Made by a program: the position numbers and the translations under genes. From IMG/VR virus record IMGVR_UViG_3300020190_000440, positions 1 through 20,306 of that record: 20,306 nucleotides of DNA; one strand, written 5' to 3'. Every line of letters starts with the position of its first letter. Positions within the stretch are counted from its first letter, which is position 1. The stretch is from a virus. The notes under the pieces were generated by a model. It saw nothing but the letters and a program-made list of their open reading frames with translations, ran no database searches and had not been told where the DNA came from. This document shows, one piece after another, positions 598 to 11,107 of the stretch.

Positions 598-2463
598 TTA
601 CGGAACAACTTCTACTGGTTCTCTTTCAACAGCAACATTCCAATAGTTTTCGGGTGAACGAGAAGTCTTGGTTACTGTGGATAGAGGACTAATAAACAGG
701 GACTCGTTTCCAGACGCAGCAAGTTTGCTAACCAAAGCAGGTGCAGTTGTTCCTAATAGTCTTTTAAGGTTTGTAAATGTGCTTTGGCTGTCTATGGTAT
801 TGGAAACAGAAGTAAACCGCGAATTGGCTGTGTTGTAGTACACCAACACATCTTGATACAGATTTACTGCTGCTGCGGTGGCAAATGTGTAGTATATGCC
901 GTAAGAATCAGCAATAGAAACAGAGAGAGTGCTGCCTGCAACAACAATTGAATCGTAAACAGTTTTCAGATACGAAATATTGCTTTCTATTGGGGTGTAA
1001 GTAAATGATGTGGGAAAAGTGGAACCGCTATACAGGTTCTTGAAATCTCCACTGGCTCCACTTGCACCACTCATGGTTAATCCCAAATAGTAACGGAAAG
1101 TGTAGTCGTTCAGGTCTTTTCGGTACTGTTTGGCTGCTGTGAGTCCGCTAGACAGTTCCGTTACTGCGGTGGGAATCCAACACGCACCACTATCGTAACC
1201 AAAAATGTATCCTGCGGAAGCATCTGTTACCGCATGACCTCCACAAACACCACTTACAGGGGATGTCCACATTCGTGAAGCGGTAACACCCACGCAACCG
1301 TAAACATACAGGCTGCTGCCTTGGAATGCCACATTGCTAGCCACCTTGTTGGTGGTATCGCACGGGAAATACGATGTTCCAAGAGGGCCGTCCATGCTTA
1401 AGTAGTAAACGGTGTAATAGCCTGCGTCTTGGTGGGCTGTGGGAACAGGTGCGGTACTACCGTGTTGGAACCCACGAAGAGCGTCAGATGTTGTGCCTGC
1501 ACTAATTACAAGGTCGTCTAGCCAACCCTTGAATGGCTTATTTCCGCTGCCACCGCAACCCACATAAACAGATGATTTGGTTCCACGAATAGTGCCTGTT
1601 GCGCCTGTATATTTTTGAACCTGATTGCCGTTCCAATACGAACTAACTGCCGCACTGCTGCCTGCATTGGTATACGCCACGGCAAAATGATTCCACTCGT
1701 TCAGGGTGACTCCGCTAGGAGACACATTCATAATGTGGTCAAATCCTGTGGATACTGTGTTTGCTGTGGTGGAAAAATGGAACTGGAAACGAGACGACGA
1801 GTAGTCGTATTCCAAACGGAACGAGTCACTGGTTGTGCCTGTTACACCGTCTGGGCTTCGGGTAATAACTATAGGGTCATAAGCAGAGGTTGGGGCGGTG
1901 TCCATGTACACCCAACCAGAAATCAAGAAATACGAAGCCGATGTGAAACCTGGAAGTGAAATGCCTGCGGCAGCGGTGTCTGTGTCCAAATACGAGCCTT
2001 TGAACTGTGCTGCACGAGAACCCACAAACGCCCCAGTTGCACCAACGGTTCCTATGGTGGGATTGTACTCGGTGGCAGTGGCTCCACTCAAGGTCAAGTA
2101 GTTTATGACCTCTGGAGTTATGTTAGACTGGAAAACTAATTCGGTTGGTGTGAATGTGCCGTATCCTGTGCCGTCTATCTTTTGTTCGGCTAGAGGAAAA
2201 ACAGTTGTTGTGCTTGGAGCAACAGAGATGTTTCCAATATCTGTGAAAATAGTGGATGTTATGGTGTCTGGCTGTTCAGAAATAGCAACTGTGGTGTTTG
2301 ACCCACTAATAGGAGTCAATCCTCTAGAAACAACAAAAACATTTGGTTGGTCGCTGTAGGTAGAGGTCAAAAACCCTTTGTCGTCAAACACTTCAACCAG
2401 AACTTCTGATGTTCCTGTTAAGGGATTTATTCGTATTAGTGATTTATCTGATGGAGACGGCAT
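598..2463 (-). CDS. LamG / concanavalin A-like virion adhesin
   Basis: A 621-residue protein starting at ATG 2463, preceded by a purine run GGGGGA 6 bp upstream and only 3 bp after the beta-helix gene. The N-terminus (residues 1-140) is Thr/Ser-rich beta structure. Residues 150-325 look like a LamG jelly-roll: AAQFKGSYLDT, then FLISGWVYM (179-187), FRLEYDYSSSRFQFHF (215-230), LNEWNHFAVAYT (254-265), YWNGNQV and the closing FKGWLDDLVIS (311-321). These strands follow the usual LamG order. A segment YTVYYLSMDGPLGTSYFP follows at 350-367, then about 250 residues I cannot assign. LamG folds in phage tails are generally taken to bind carbohydrate, so a role as tail or neck adhesin is inferred. It occupies the place of T4 wac, next to the neck gene, but shows no sequence likeness to fibritin. 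Its stop codon is in frame with the downstream 91-residue gene. Confidence 0.7.
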   Translation of the reverse strand: MPSPSDKSLIRINPLTGTSEVLVEVFDDKGFLTSTYSDQPNVFVVSRGLTPISGSNTTVAISEQPDTITSTIFTDIGNISVAPSTTTVFPLAEQKIDGTGYGTFTPTELVFQSNITPEVINYLTLSGATATEYNPTIGTVGATGAFVGSRAAQFKGSYLDTDTAAAGISLPGFTSASYFLISGWVYMDTAPTSAYDPIVITRSPDGVTGTTSDSFRLEYDYSSSRFQFHFSTTANTVSTGFDHIMNVSPSGVTLNEWNHFAVAYTNAGSSAAVSSYWNGNQVQKYTGATGTIRGTKSSVYVGCGGSGNKPFKGWLDDLVISAGTTSDALRGFQHGSTAPVPTAHQDAGYYTVYYLSMDGPLGTSYFPCDTTNKVASNVAFQGSSLYVYGCVGVTASRMWTSPVSGVCGGHAVTDASAGYIFGYDSGACWIPTAVTELSSGLTAAKQYRKDLNDYTFRYYLGLTMSGASGASGDFKNLYSGSTFPTSFTYTPIESNISYLKTVYDSIVVAGSTLSVSIADSYGIYYTFATAAAVNLYQDVLVYYNTANSRFTSVSNTIDSQSTFTNLKRLLGTTAPALVSKLAASGNESLFISPLSTVTKTSRSPENYWNVAVEREPVEVVP

Positions 2464-5828: not shown

Positions 5829-7967
5829 TCAAGCAAAAACAACCATTGTGATATAATTGTTATTTTGTAAAGTATTAGAAACATCAACCACGGTTACATC
5901 TATTCGGTTTGTTTCTTGAACCTTTGCATTTGCCATTTGATTTCCTCCTGCTAAATCATTTGCAGACCATGCACTAGCAAATGCAGCACCAGTGTTGTTT
6001 GGAAGTACTTGCCCAGTCTTCAAATACACAGAATACACACCATTTGCGGGTCTTCCAACATAATCTATGTTACTGCTTGCCCCCCAAATCTTGACCGATC
6101 CTCCTGGGCCACTTAAATCTGTTCCATCAAAAGAAACCCAAGCCCTAGCACCAAATATTGGAGCACTTCCGCTAGGAACACTAAAGTTTGCAGACCCCAT
6201 TATGATTTTGTCGTTGGTTTTAATGCTACCGTTCACATCCAACGCAACTGCCGGATTGGATGTTCCAATACCAAGTCTTCCGTCTCCGCTAATTCGGATT
6301 CTTTCACCTTCTGTTCCGCTTTGGAGTGTGGAAAATATAAATCCTCCACCACTACTGTTATACATTGTAAGATTTGAATTTCCAGAAGTGTGTTTGAATT
6401 GTAAATTGCTTCCAGGACCATTCAAAATTGCAGAAACACTACCAGACAAAAGGTCTACTCGGAGTGCTCCATCGTATACATGGAGTTTTTGGCTGGGTGC
6501 ATTTGTTCCAATACCAACTTCTCCACCAACTTCAATTCGCATCCGCTCCGTGCCCAAGCCGCTGTCGCCTGCGGTGTTGGTGTAGAACACCAAATCGCTG
6601 TTAGACCCACCAATGGCTCGTGTGCGGAGGTCACGAACCAGTGTGGACGACCACGGCAGGTCTAGGCTGTCAATAATGGCAGCACGGGTGTACGGCTTGG
6701 CTTTAATAATGTACCGCACCGCAAGGTACGGGGGCATGTTGTTGTGGGGTTGGTCGCCGCCAGTTGCACCAGTCAGTCTAATGTAACCACCATCGACTGG
6801 ATTGTTTACATTTGCAACCTCGTTAGAAGCGGAACTTGGGAGTGGATTTGCAGTATTATCTTGACCATAAATTATATGTTGGTGAGACGGCATTTCTCCA
6901 GCGGTGAGGATGTGTCGCTCTTCGCCACCTTCTGAACCAAGCGGATAGATTCCGCTGATTGCAGATTGGTTGGTAGCATCGCCTTCAAGATCAGCAAGAG
7001 TTGTTTGATTCACGCCCAACGCAAATCGACCACGCAGGTCTGGGGTATTAAAGTGTGTAAGTGCCACCGTTGTAATGCTAGCGGTGCTGCTTCTTACGGT
7101 TCCTACACTACTTACAATTCTATATTGTAAACCAGAAACGCTTCCAGCCTTGAACAACAGGTTCGGGAATTCTAGTGTTTTATTTGTGCTATTGTAAACA
7201 GAAAGTGTTTGAATAACTGCACTAGTTGCAGAAACAGAAAGAACCACACCAATAAGTTCTGCGTTGGAATTGTAAACGCTACCTGTCCAAGCGTTGGTGT
7301 TGTTTTTGAATTGAAGTATGTCACCAACCACAACACTACCGGTGTTTAGTTCTGTTCCTGTAAGAGTCACCACACAACCGTAAATAGGAGCACGGTCGCC
7401 ACTAGTGTTTTGTAGTTTGCTGTACAGTTCAGGGTAATCAGCAACGGTATAGGTTGTGCCGTTGCACTCCAACCATGTGTCGGGAATGGTTGTGCCTGCA
7501 AAGGGCATGATGCTGCCCACAGGCTGCACCTCGTCAATACCCACCGTAGACGAACCACCAATCTGTGTGCCCAAGTAGTTGTTCATCACATACCCGTTCA
7601 GGGTGGGGTGGCGAGTCACCACAGGCTTGATTACAGTTCCCACAGCACTAGGTGGGTTGTGGGTCAGTCCACCCGAAACAGTAGAGTCAAGAAAAAGCAC
7701 AGGGTACGACAGCCCTGCGTATTTGGGCATGTCAATATAGCCACCGTAGGTGAGTTCAAAGGTGTTTGGGTCTGTGATGGCATTCACAATACCCAGCACT
7801 TCTGCGTTTTCTGCGGAGTCTGCTTGTGCTTTAAAGTATTTTTTAGCGTCTGCGGCGTTGAAACGCACCACATCACCCACAGTAAAGCCGTGAGACGACA
7901 GAGAGATGCTCTCTTTCAGAGTCTTGGCTGTTGCTGCTCCACCTGTTAGTACGAGTGATGAACCCAT
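5829..7967 (-). CDS. Tail fibre with collar domain, possible gp12 counterpart
   Basis: A 712-residue fibre. The start ATG 7967 has AGGA about 9 bases upstream. Domains in order: residues 22-138, a module also found in the upstream fibre (HGFTVGDVVRF, SAENAEV, FELTYGG); residues 148-184 and 305-318, the two halves of a Phage_Collar domain (VGSIMPFAGTTIPDTWLECN, then FNTPDLRGRFALG); residues 347-364, GGEERHILTAGEMPSHQH, with a His-x-His motif; residues 407-424, PHNNMPPYLAVRYIIKAK; then residues 480-580 with two GIGT..P..LHV-type repeats (484-499, 563-580), common in trimeric fibres; and a tip at 590-712 shared with the 1033-residue fibre. The collar halves are separated by about 115 residues that look like a further copy of the shared module. 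T4 gp12, the short tail fibre, also carries a collar domain and lies in the same interval, so this is its best counterpart. Equivalence is inferred from domain and position only. Confidence 0.82.
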   Translation of the reverse strand: MGSSLVLTGGAATAKTLKESISLSSHGFTVGDVVRFNAADAKKYFKAQADSAENAEVLGIVNAITDPNTFELTYGGYIDMPKYAGLSYPVLFLDSTVSGGLTHNPPSAVGTVIKPVVTRHPTLNGYVMNNYLGTQIGGSSTVGIDEVQPVGSIMPFAGTTIPDTWLECNGTTYTVADYPELYSKLQNTSGDRAPIYGCVVTLTGTELNTGSVVVGDILQFKNNTNAWTGSVYNSNAELIGVVLSVSATSAVIQTLSVYNSTNKTLEFPNLLFKAGSVSGLQYRIVSSVGTVRSSTASITTVALTHFNTPDLRGRFALGVNQTTLADLEGDATNQSAISGIYPLGSEGGEERHILTAGEMPSHQHIIYGQDNTANPLPSSASNEVANVNNPVDGGYIRLTGATGGDQPHNNMPPYLAVRYIIKAKPYTRAAIIDSLDLPWSSTLVRDLRTRAIGGSNSDLVFYTNTAGDSGLGTERMRIEVGGEVGIGTNAPSQKLHVYDGALRVDLLSGSVSAILNGPGSNLQFKHTSGNSNLTMYNSSGGGFIFSTLQSGTEGERIRISGDGRLGIGTSNPAVALDVNGSIKTNDKIIMGSANFSVPSGSAPIFGARAWVSFDGTDLSGPGGSVKIWGASSNIDYVGRPANGVYSVYLKTGQVLPNNTGAAFASAWSANDLAGGNQMANAKVQETNRIDVTVVDVSNTLQNNNYITMVVFA
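5832..6200 (-). repeat. Shared C-terminal tip domain, fibre 2 copy
   Basis: Residues 590-712 of the 712-residue fibre. The domain opens with PSGSAPIFGARAWVSF and closes with a hydrophobic end (ITMVVFA). The upstream fibre has PSGSAPLFGARAWVVF in the same place. DNA at 6137-6170 matches 8389-8422 at 30 of 34 positions by eye. Downstream the two tips diverge. Confidence 0.8.
7068..7346 (-). repeat. Shared fibre module, copy D (diverged, inside collar domain)
   Basis: Residues about 208-300 of the 712-residue fibre: GSVVVGDILQFKNNTNAW, then NAELIGVVLSVSA, then SVSGLQYRI. The spacing of GD..(R/Q)F, AE..G.V and G..Y matches the other three copies, but similarity is weak. It sits between the two halves of the collar domain. 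Confidence 0.5.
7554..7904 (-). repeat. Shared fibre module, copy C
   Basis: Residues 22-138 of the 712-residue fibre. Key landmarks are HGFTVGDVVRF (26-36), KAQADSAENAEVLGIV (46-61), FELTYGGYI (70-78) and GTVIKP (110-115). It aligns well with copy A of the 1033-residue fibre. The DNA is also similar around the SAENAEV codons (near 7799-7820 and 10228-10250). Confidence 0.78.
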
Positions 7968-8005: not shown

Positions 8006-11000
8006 TCAACCAAATACAATTACTGAAATTGGAGTTGTACTGGAGTCGTATCTGTTTCCATTGTTAGAACTTGCAGTGTGAATATGAAAACTGGTTGTAG
8101 TTTTTAAGTACGGTTGAAGTGGAGTTGTTGTGCTTGTATAACCAGAACTAGTGTTGAGGTCACCCGCTGAAGGTGCTGCAATATTGGTTATATTATTTAG
8201 ATTTCCTGGAGACTGACACATTACAATGTAATCTGTATCGGGCATTGCAGTTGTTAGGGTGACTTTATACACACCAGTAGTAACTCTTTCAACCGATGAA
8301 ACATTTCCACTTTTCTTTATAAATCTGTTGGTTGAAGTAATTGGATTTTCTGCTGTGCCACTAGAGGTCTTGTTTGGTTCAAACACAACCCAAGCCCTTG
8401 CTCCAAATAGCGGAGCACTTCCCGAAGGAGTGCTCATCACAGCATCACCTATACGCAGGTTTCCGTTTATGTGAAGTGCTTCTGATGGTGCGTATGTGTT
8501 TACACCAACATTCACCGATGTCCCGTTGTAAGACATTAGTAAACCAACTTGCTGCGCCCCAACAGCCCACGGAGCAATTCCAAATGTGTGTCCCACGCCA
8601 CCGCCACCCTGTTTTCCAAACACCAAATAACTGCCACCGTTGTATGCGTTTATGCCGTTATAGTTTCCAGCAGCACCACTGGAGTTCATCAGCAAGAAAT
8701 TGCCGTCTGTGGTGGTCATGTACACCTGTGGACTAGCGGTTGTGTTGCTGTGACCTTGAATAAACAGGCGTGACTTATGAGTTTGCAATGACGCACGGTC
8801 TTGTGTGGTTCCAATGTTTACCGCTCCAGTAAACATAGCCGTAGCACCCACAATACTGAATCGGTCTGTCAGAGTCACGGCTCCACCCAAAGCAGGAGCA
8901 GGGGAAGTAGCATCAGCCGTCTTCCACACTAGGGCAGGATCAGAACCACTGGCTCCTGCCACCAACACCGAGCGGGGAGCCGACAGACTGCTAGGCAGAC
9001 TGCTAATCCACGAATCACTGGCTCGACCTGGACGCACACCGTAACCCAAGGCTAGACTGGACTTGCCGTATTGGGTTCCAATCACATTGAATGTGGCAGC
9101 AGTTGTTCCGTTTCCACCAATGGTTGTGTTATCGGTATCGTGACGAGAAATAATAAGGTCGCGTCCTTGTGGTGTGCTTACAGACGCAAGAGTAAGCCCC
9201 ACACGCAGGTCGCCACGCACATCTAATTGCGACAGAATGCGGTTTCCGTTTCCTGCGTTTACGGTTTGCCACCCACCACCCACACCCACATATCCCGTGA
9301 CACCCATAGTATTGGTGAACTTGCTCTGACCCGCAGCAATTCTAACCGCTTCAAGCCCGTTGGTGGAAGCGTTGTACACACCAATCTTCAGGTCGCCGCT
9401 AATACCGTCACTAATATCAGAAACCAAGAAGTTGGCAAGGTTAGCGTAACTAATACCTGTTGCAGCACCACGCACATCACCACGATACGAGAACAGGTAT
9501 CCACTCAACGCACTGGTTGCCATCAGCAGCGGCTTTCGAACTGTGCCTTCTGCTGATGGTGGAGTCTGAGTAAGTGATGCCACACCGCTTTCAAACGAAC
9601 CAGTTGTGCCTGCACAACCCGTATTCAAGAAATACACGGTTCCAGGAGTTAACGCTGAATACGGGCTTGACCACGCACCCATATTAAAGAATCCGTCCAT
9701 GAGCACATCGAAACTACTGTTTACATCTCCGCTTGCACCAACCGCAATAACCATGCCTGCGATTTCTGCTTCTTCAGGGGTATCTGCTTCTGCTTTCACA
9801 TAGATTCCGTCTGCATTGTGCTGCTGGGCAGTTCCACCAACAGCCAGAGTGTACTCTAGTGTAACTCCTGTGGGGTAAGCCTTGAATCGAACAACATCTC
9901 CCAACACAAACTTGTTGATTTGGTTGATGCGAGTAGCAACAGAAGACGAGTTAGCAATCTGAATAGGGCTTGAAAGCACACCACCTGTGAACGGAAGCAC
10001 CACCGCAGAATTTGTGCCTGTGGCAATAAGAACAGCCTTGTGTACACTTCCAGGAGAGGTGGGCTGAACAGGGGTGATAAATCCTGCAATTGATGGTGTC
10101 AGGTAGTAGGTAGTGCCTGCTACTAGTCCTACTCCAGTAGCGTTAATAGGGGAGAAATCACCAAAAATTTCACCCAAGAATGTGAGTTCAAAATTGTTCG
10201 CATCTATAATCTTGGACACTACACCAATAACTTCAGCGTTTTCAGCAGAAGATGCCTGTGCTAGTTGGTAAGCAGAGCCGTCAAATCGCAAAACACTTCC
10301 AAACACAAAACCGTGACCAACAGAATTTATGGTTTTGCGATTAGCACCGTCGCTGATGTTTACAAACGGACGACCACCGTATGTGGTTCCGCTCAACACT
10401 TCCATGAATACCGTAGCACCTGCGGGCGAGTACCGCTCAAACTGGATGGAACGGTTGCTTGTGGTTCCTGCCACGCCTGTAGAGGTCAGTTCTACTAGCA
10501 ACCCGTGGTCACTAGTGCTGCCACCGTCTAGACGAATGCCGCTGCCGTGAACAGGCAGAACTCCTCCACCATTAGGATACAGTCCAAATGTGGCTCCGCT
10601 TATTCCAATATTAGCATTGGCTTGCCAAACACCTGTAACGCCGTGAACATAGTCCGCTTTCCACAGCCACTCTGCGGTGTTTCCGCTACCGCCACGGTCA
10701 ATAAACAAACCACCACCGCCTGCTGCGTTAATCTTGGTGTCGCTAGAACCCGCAGCAGTATTTCCTAAAACCAAGTGGTAGTCGTCAATAGTAACCACAT
10801 TCGCATTTACTGTGAATGTAGACGCATTAAATGTCACATCACCATTAAATGTGACTCCGCTTTGGAAAGTCACAGGCTGCAAGAAAGTGACACCCTTATT
10901 CACATTGTCTGCAATTTCAGCAGAAAGGGTTCCACCACCAGCCACAGAAACAGAGATGGACGAGGACGAAACCCCGTCATACACCTTTACTTTGTTGAGT

Positions 11001-11107
11001 TTATAAACACCTGTATTGGTGATATCCCTCCAAGTGTTGAAGGTATCAGCCAACTGCACTTCAGGAATAGCGTATGTGTTTATGTCTGGGCCTGTGTTTG
11101 CTGCCAT
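8006..11107 (-). CDS. Tail fibre protein with repeated modules
   Basis: A 1033-residue fibre. ATG 11107 has AGGA 6-9 bp upstream (AGGACACACATG); the first 28 bases overlap the coiled-coil gene. Residues 12-31 contain the ADTFNTWRDITN motif, which resembles the N-termini of T4-like fibre and baseplate proteins. Residues 70-115 carry short V.F repeats (VTFLQPVTF, VTFNGDVTF) and VVTIDDYHLVLGN, another common fibre motif. Residues 262-375 and 396-543 are two copies of a module shared with the next gene. Residues 600-880 are repetitive Gly/Asn/Ser-rich fibre, including VNTYAPSEALHINGNLRIG. The tip (889-1033) starts with STPSGSAPLFGARAWVVF and is homologous to the tip of the 712-residue fibre. It probably forms a trimeric fibre attached to the baseplate, in the position of T4 genes 10-11. 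A shared tip and tandem placement suggest it arose by duplication with its downstream neighbour. Confidence 0.8.
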   Translation of the reverse strand: MAANTGPDINTYAIPEVQLADTFNTWRDITNTGVYKLNKVKVYDGVSSSSISVSVAGGGTLSAEIADNVNKGVTFLQPVTFQSGVTFNGDVTFNASTFTVNANVVTIDDYHLVLGNTAAGSSDTKINAAGGGGLFIDRGGSGNTAEWLWKADYVHGVTGVWQANANIGISGATFGLYPNGGGVLPVHGSGIRLDGGSTSDHGLLVELTSTGVAGTTSNRSIQFERYSPAGATVFMEVLSGTTYGGRPFVNISDGANRKTINSVGHGFVFGSVLRFDGSAYQLAQASSAENAEVIGVVSKIIDANNFELTFLGEIFGDFSPINATGVGLVAGTTYYLTPSIAGFITPVQPTSPGSVHKAVLIATGTNSAVVLPFTGGVLSSPIQIANSSSVATRINQINKFVLGDVVRFKAYPTGVTLEYTLAVGGTAQQHNADGIYVKAEADTPEEAEIAGMVIAVGASGDVNSSFDVLMDGFFNMGAWSSPYSALTPGTVYFLNTGCAGTTGSFESGVASLTQTPPSAEGTVRKPLLMATSALSGYLFSYRGDVRGAATGISYANLANFLVSDISDGISGDLKIGVYNASTNGLEAVRIAAGQSKFTNTMGVTGYVGVGGGWQTVNAGNGNRILSQLDVRGDLRVGLTLASVSTPQGRDLIISRHDTDNTTIGGNGTTAATFNVIGTQYGKSSLALGYGVRPGRASDSWISSLPSSLSAPRSVLVAGASGSDPALVWKTADATSPAPALGGAVTLTDRFSIVGATAMFTGAVNIGTTQDRASLQTHKSRLFIQGHSNTTASPQVYMTTTDGNFLLMNSSGAAGNYNGINAYNGGSYLVFGKQGGGGVGHTFGIAPWAVGAQQVGLLMSYNGTSVNVGVNTYAPSEALHINGNLRIGDAVMSTPSGSAPLFGARAWVVFEPNKTSSGTAENPITSTNRFIKKSGNVSSVERVTTGVYKVTLTTAMPDTDYIVMCQSPGNLNNITNIAAPSAGDLNTSSGYTSTTTPLQPYLKTTTSFHIHTASSNNGNRYDSSTTPISVIVFG
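8009..8443 (-). repeat. Shared C-terminal tip domain, fibre 1 copy
   Basis: Residues 889-1033 of the 1033-residue fibre, opening with STPSGSAPLFGARAWVVF and continuing through TTGVYKVTLTTAMPDTDYIV. It pairs with the tip of the 712-residue fibre. It is longer, with an added Ser/Thr/Asn-rich stretch and a FHIH motif near residue 1007 before the ISVIVFG end. Confidence 0.8.
9479..9922 (-). repeat. Shared fibre module, copy B
   Basis: Residues 396-543 of the 1033-residue fibre. Landmarks are NKFVLGDVVRF (398-408), KAEADTPEEAEIAGMV (438-453), LTPGTVYFL (486-494) and EGTVRKPLLMAT (520-531). It is longer than copy A because of extra residues after GDVVRF. Confidence 0.75.
9983..10324 (-). repeat. 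Shared fibre module, copy A
   Basis: Residues 262-375 of the 1033-residue fibre. Landmarks are HGFVFGSVLRFDG (265-277), AQASSAENAEVIGVV (283-297), NNFELTFLGEI (304-314), LVAGTTYYLTPSIAGFIT (328-345) and GSVHKAVLIAT (353-363). It is the copy closest to copy C in the neighbouring gene. Confidence 0.78.

Follow-up and report, generated by a model that had tools for sequence, protein, structure and literature searches.

Collar domains are usually seen as a rigid framework, and specificity is placed in the head. In phage T4, gp10, gp11 and gp12 have collar-like cores with inserted subdomains, some of them structural, according to PMC3004832. There the core of this flower motif consists of a helix and beta-sheets and bears large inserted loops or subdomains, such as the finger of gp11 and the loop between strands 2 and 3 of gp12. 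These loops are a precedent for insertion in general. A second system is the neck fibre of Anabaena phage A-1(L), in which gp81 and gp82C were modelled by the authors as trimeric beads along a chain (PMC10966104; PDB 8keg).

The window, a 20,306-nucleotide stretch of a virus record in IMG/VR (IMGVR_UViG_3300020190_000440), encodes a tail-fibre protein of 712 amino acids on the minus strand (5829-7967). A 1033-aa fibre, a 1691-aa protein and a 795-aa protein are encoded upstream. The best relatives of the 1691-aa protein were VrlC of Pelagibacter phages Mosig and HTVC008M and of Sinorhizobium phage phiM9, and the 795-aa protein is the counterpart, by position, of the baseplate gp8 gene in the same three phages. 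The window is therefore a piece of an uncultured T4-like phage genome.

The 712-aa fibre opens directly with a beta module (residues 1-132; 7572-7967, this and the following parts on the minus strand), which was modelled by AlphaFold2 with a pLDDT of about 75. The linker GTQIGGSST and the first part of a collar come next (residues 133-190; 7398-7571), with a helix at residues 179-187. The collar is interrupted twice. The first interruption is an inserted beta-barrel domain (residues 193-305; 7053-7391). The second collar part, FNTPDLRGRFALG (residues 306-318; 7014-7052), is followed by a gp12-like head region (residues 319-415; 6723-7013), in which the motif SHQH resembles the metal-site HxH of T4 gp12. 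The last collar strand, LAVRYIIKAK (residues 416-425; 6693-6722), matches the C-terminal strand of T4 gp12 in a VIA-align comparison with 1ocy. The remainder of the protein is a shaft-like C-terminal part (residues 431-712; 5832-6677) with matches to phrog_9942, phrog_18345 and phrog_27810.

The Pfam Collar profile (PF07484) scored 50 bits (E 2.9e-13) on the whole protein, above the curated cut-off of 24 bits. The match covers residues 151-188, equivalent to profile positions 1-38, then breaks off. An uninterrupted Collar domain of about 57 residues is thus not present, and PDLRGR comes 113 residues later. The original prediction had the collar halves about 115 residues apart, which agrees with an insert of 113 aa; it had drawn the insert at residues 208-300, and the actual span, 193-305, is slightly wider. 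It had further held that collars normally keep these halves close together. This was borne out by ordinary collars from viral contigs, in which the gap at the insert site was 12-15 residues (90/90), a sample collected by tblastn with an uninterrupted collar query that under-represents split collars and is no census. The gap in T4 gp12 is 22 residues, and 0 of the canonical collars sampled has a loop as long as the insert. In 60 phage records spread along the ranking of a collar search, the collar looked uninterrupted wherever both halves were covered.

The first part, the PDLRGR part and the final strand of the PF07484 or T4 gp12 collar are all recognisable in the 712-aa fibre. Using VIA-align, the collar remainder (model residues 149-425) was aligned with T4 gp12 (1ocy, chain residues 342-527; Z 4.8, 72 aligned). 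Because this alignment spans 149-425, the pieces on both sides of the insert, together with the last strand, are predicted to form one collar fold. Closure by a last YIIK strand after the head is a gp12-type trait and was found here; the Z score is weak, but the sequence supports this closure. A second gp12-type trait, a C-terminal collar and head, was not found: the collar occupies residues 150-425, in the middle of the protein, and about 290 residues come after it. The second collar part and the head were poorly modelled, with a pLDDT under 50 for residues 313-416. The fibre therefore differs from PF07484 and T4 gp12 in the position of its collar as well as in the barrel that interrupts it. 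Most likely the split collar with its nested barrel is a variant of the known gp12-like collar. It differs from the flower motif in the extra insert between the collar helix and PDLRGR, for which the text of PMC3004832 describes no equivalent.

Modelled by itself with AlphaFold2, the insert is a small beta-barrel (pLDDT 86, pTM 0.79). In the full-protein AlphaFold2 model (24 relatives) it reached a pLDDT of about 80, within the range of about 75-80 that holds for module and insert together, and the collar helix comes just before it. The claim that a module is nested within the collar thus stands to the extent that a self-folding domain is predicted there. The structural neighbours of the insert were six-stranded barrels, including the pyruvate kinase B domain, the F1-ATPase N domain and aIF2-gamma. 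Kinship with F1-ATPase or pyruvate kinase was rejected in favour of shared architecture only, as Z was 5-6 and F1 sequences gave no match. In a viral structure library the neighbours were many structural proteins of uncultured phages and cyanophages, at non-significant E values (best 0.02). A PDB sequence search with the insert profile gave no match, and weak Pfam matches of the insert (DUF2187 and others) were dropped as they were below cut-off and inconsistent among members.

Relatives of the 712-aa fibre were gathered by several scans. An insert of 90-150 aa was present at the same collar site in 40/40 distinct relatives measured, and none of those that could be measured was insert-free, so that no empty site is known. 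More distant, marine-type relatives in other contigs (L240-L247, L251, L252) had the same order of parts, with an insert of 109-141 aa. The insert is not peculiar to the window. No match was found in cultured phage records searched by tblastn with the insert, the N-terminal module and the distant relatives L240 and L247. Relatives were found neither in a viral-contig scan with only the window insert as query nor in a scan of genome contigs with the family alignment (A4). The fibre regions of HTVC008M, Mosig and phiM9 contained no clear relative of the module, the insert or the split collar. A match in Arthrobacter phage CapnMurica was rejected as a split-collar relative; its collar is ordinary and has no insert.

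The insert had been proposed to be a copy of the module repeated elsewhere in these fibres, on the basis of three landmarks. The first two are a real pair: GDILQF (residues 215-220) and AELIGVV (236-242) are 21 residues apart, and their counterparts in the module, GDVVRF at 31 and AEVLGIV at 55, are 24 apart. The third, GLQYRI (279-284), is displaced, 43 residues past AE as against about 30 in the module. Comparison of module and insert profiles aligned 42 columns with P 5e-6. The module profile was matched by seven window-like inserts (P 1.6e-7) and, in the same register, by 15 others that form a disjoint set (P 1e-5). The module-insert score was 38-41; none of 200 column shuffles exceeded 22. 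Control tiles gave maxima of 20 (other window proteins, outside the modules) and 24 (308 tiles from other T4-like and cyanophage proteins) against 40 for the window insert, and E. coli F1-ATPase barrels, which have a similar architecture, scored about 14 and did not match the module. Because the scores are far above all of the controls, we take this similarity in sequence to be real, though local.

How far the similarity extends is a separate matter. The residues matching the module profile are the first ~42-50 of the insert, and the alignment is poor in the other half. Taken singly, the inserts of many relatives scored no higher than controls. The most distant inserts occupy this collar site as well and did not match the module profiles (P 0.03-0.17 only). 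The fold neighbours also differ: those of the module were phage head-decoration proteins and those of the insert the six-stranded barrels, at VIA-align Z scores of 5-7, which are middling, and from lists in which a missing row proves nothing. The copy claim is therefore partly supported, by the first part of the insert. Given the poor second half, the unmatched distant inserts and the differing fold neighbours, homology and convergence are both possible, and descent of the barrel from the module of this fibre has roughly even odds.

A true nested copy, in which the module of this fibre was long ago duplicated or transferred into the collar loop and then diverged, would account for the agreement in register between disjoint insert sets, for the wide gap to the controls, for the silence of the F1-ATPase barrels and for the first strands, which agree in order and spacing in the AlphaFold2 models of module and insert. 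Against it, beyond the poor second half and the fold neighbours, the distant inserts that do not match are presumably orthologous. The two module copies in the 1033-aa fibre (residues 258-376, 9980-10336, minus strand; residues 393-543, 9479-9931, minus strand) were identified as such by hhalign (P 1e-18 and 4e-15) and barely matched the inserts (P 0.001 and 0.009). We consider this origin quite possible, at slightly below an even chance. Otherwise the insert may be an unrelated barrel that converged on a common local motif, in which a GD turn joins two strands and xxGVV follows the second. Such an origin fits the confinement of the significant similarity to one part of the insert, the general six-stranded barrels among its structural neighbours, and the short (L089, L090) and distant (A8) inserts, in which the motif is the generic VGDxVxQ...GIVxxV. 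It does not explain why hundreds of control tiles and shuffles scored well below the insert, or why F1 barrel sequences do not score. This second origin is possible, and we hold it tentatively, clearly short of an even chance.

The N-terminal module of the 712-aa fibre and the A-1(L) neck-fibre beads gp81 and gp82C fall in one sequence family (E 2e-4 for gp82). In A-1(L) the beads form an end-to-end string and are not nested in a collar, and the insert itself matched gp81 very weakly (P 0.12). Judged by sequence, neck-fibre beads and tail-fibre modules look related (window 7572-7967, minus strand; contig L179, 8960-10204). The top VIA-align neighbours of the N-terminal module were the head-decoration proteins 7kmx_a, 8pkh_FP and 6bl5 (Z 5.1-6.8). 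These are capsid proteins, unlike the fibre, and they were absent from the listed neighbours of the insert, which leaves that fold possible for it. On these models a link between capsid decoration and fibre beads is possible.

Among the relatives measured, no part of the fibre varies more than the insert, for which the median pairwise identity was 29%. The corresponding values were 47% for the head, 53% for the module and 69% for the linker plus first collar half. In several relatives the insert is replaced while the flanks are still 95-100% identical in DNA. The module and head of L082 resemble those of L009 (97-98% aa), and its insert resembles that of L079 (91% aa, versus 36% to L009). In DNA, L082 follows L009 at 95-100% as far as about residue 160. 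Over the insert its closest match is L079, mostly at 83-95%, and from about residue 340 to 420 it is again like L009. This puts crossovers near residues 160 and 335, flanking the insert. Both insert and head differ between L092 and L096 (module 98%, insert 27%) and between L007 and L187 (module 97%, insert 19%). These replacement patterns were observed in metagenomic contigs compared as found, in which any one mosaic, L082 for example, could reflect misassembly; the several independent mosaic pairs make this less likely. Some relatives thus appear to swap the insert between phages in the manner of a cassette. The genes of L082/L009/L079, L092/L096 and L007/L187 are mosaic fibre genes in which near-identical N-terminal modules come with differing inserts or heads. 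Heads vary as well: in 24/37 relatives (L005, L006, L004, L008 and others) the head is shortened after PDLRGR and has no gp12-like HxH.

We propose that the barrel occupies the loop that leads from the helix (YPELYSKL) to the next strand (FNTPDLRGR) in a trimeric collar of the gp12 type. Collar parts 1 and 2 and the last strand would still assemble as in T4 gp12. The usual head region (319-415) would hang from this collar as one excursion, and the new barrel (193-305) as another. Each of the three chains would contribute one barrel, and the barrels would project from a node in mid-fibre and contact the host surface as exchangeable specificity lobes. We give this proposal as a whole, a self-contained barrel in a gp12-like collar loop acting as an exposed, exchangeable host-contact lobe, a probability of about 0.6. 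Host contact is probably the most economical reading of the insert, because the insert is the part that changes most and passes between phages, on a collar framework that is retained. In 24/37 relatives with complete heads the gp12-type HxH motif was missing and the insert was kept, which suggests that the insert may be important independently of a gp12-type head.

Rapid change and exchange are also compatible with escape from other pressures, or with a structural spacer under loose constraint. The insert could be such a spacer, or a clasp, placing the fibre in position or gripping another protein of the virion, as the structural subdomains in the T4 collar-like folds (PMC3004832) and the mid-fibre collar might suggest. 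This is unlikely, since replacement between near-identical flanks fits selection for change better than drift. With the collar in mid-fibre, the original placement of an extra lobe on a receptor-binding head is not supported, and the main binding role may belong to another, C-terminal part. It is doubtful that a T4-like lineage set a diverged copy of its own bead module in the collar loop and that this nested domain outranks the classical gp12 head as the exchangeable host-specificity cassette.

In this fibre a second insertion point of the collar bears the sequence that is most variable and apparently exchanged, and the fibre of this phage group had no match among the cultured phage records searched. 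If the insert binds the host, it would be a cassette, recognisable in sequence, with which to predict and test the hosts of uncultured T4-like phages; it would also illustrate a naturally permissive site in a collar.

Two further features of the window concern its other fibre proteins. The 712-aa fibre (5832-6677, minus strand) and the 1033-aa fibre (8009-11107, minus strand) have like C-terminal ends, with phrog_27810 in both and the motif SGSAPxFGARAWVxF. A 621-aa protein (601-2463, minus strand) contains a Laminin_G_3 (concanavalin-like) domain (E 1.9e-13), a domain type typical of sugar-binding fibre parts.
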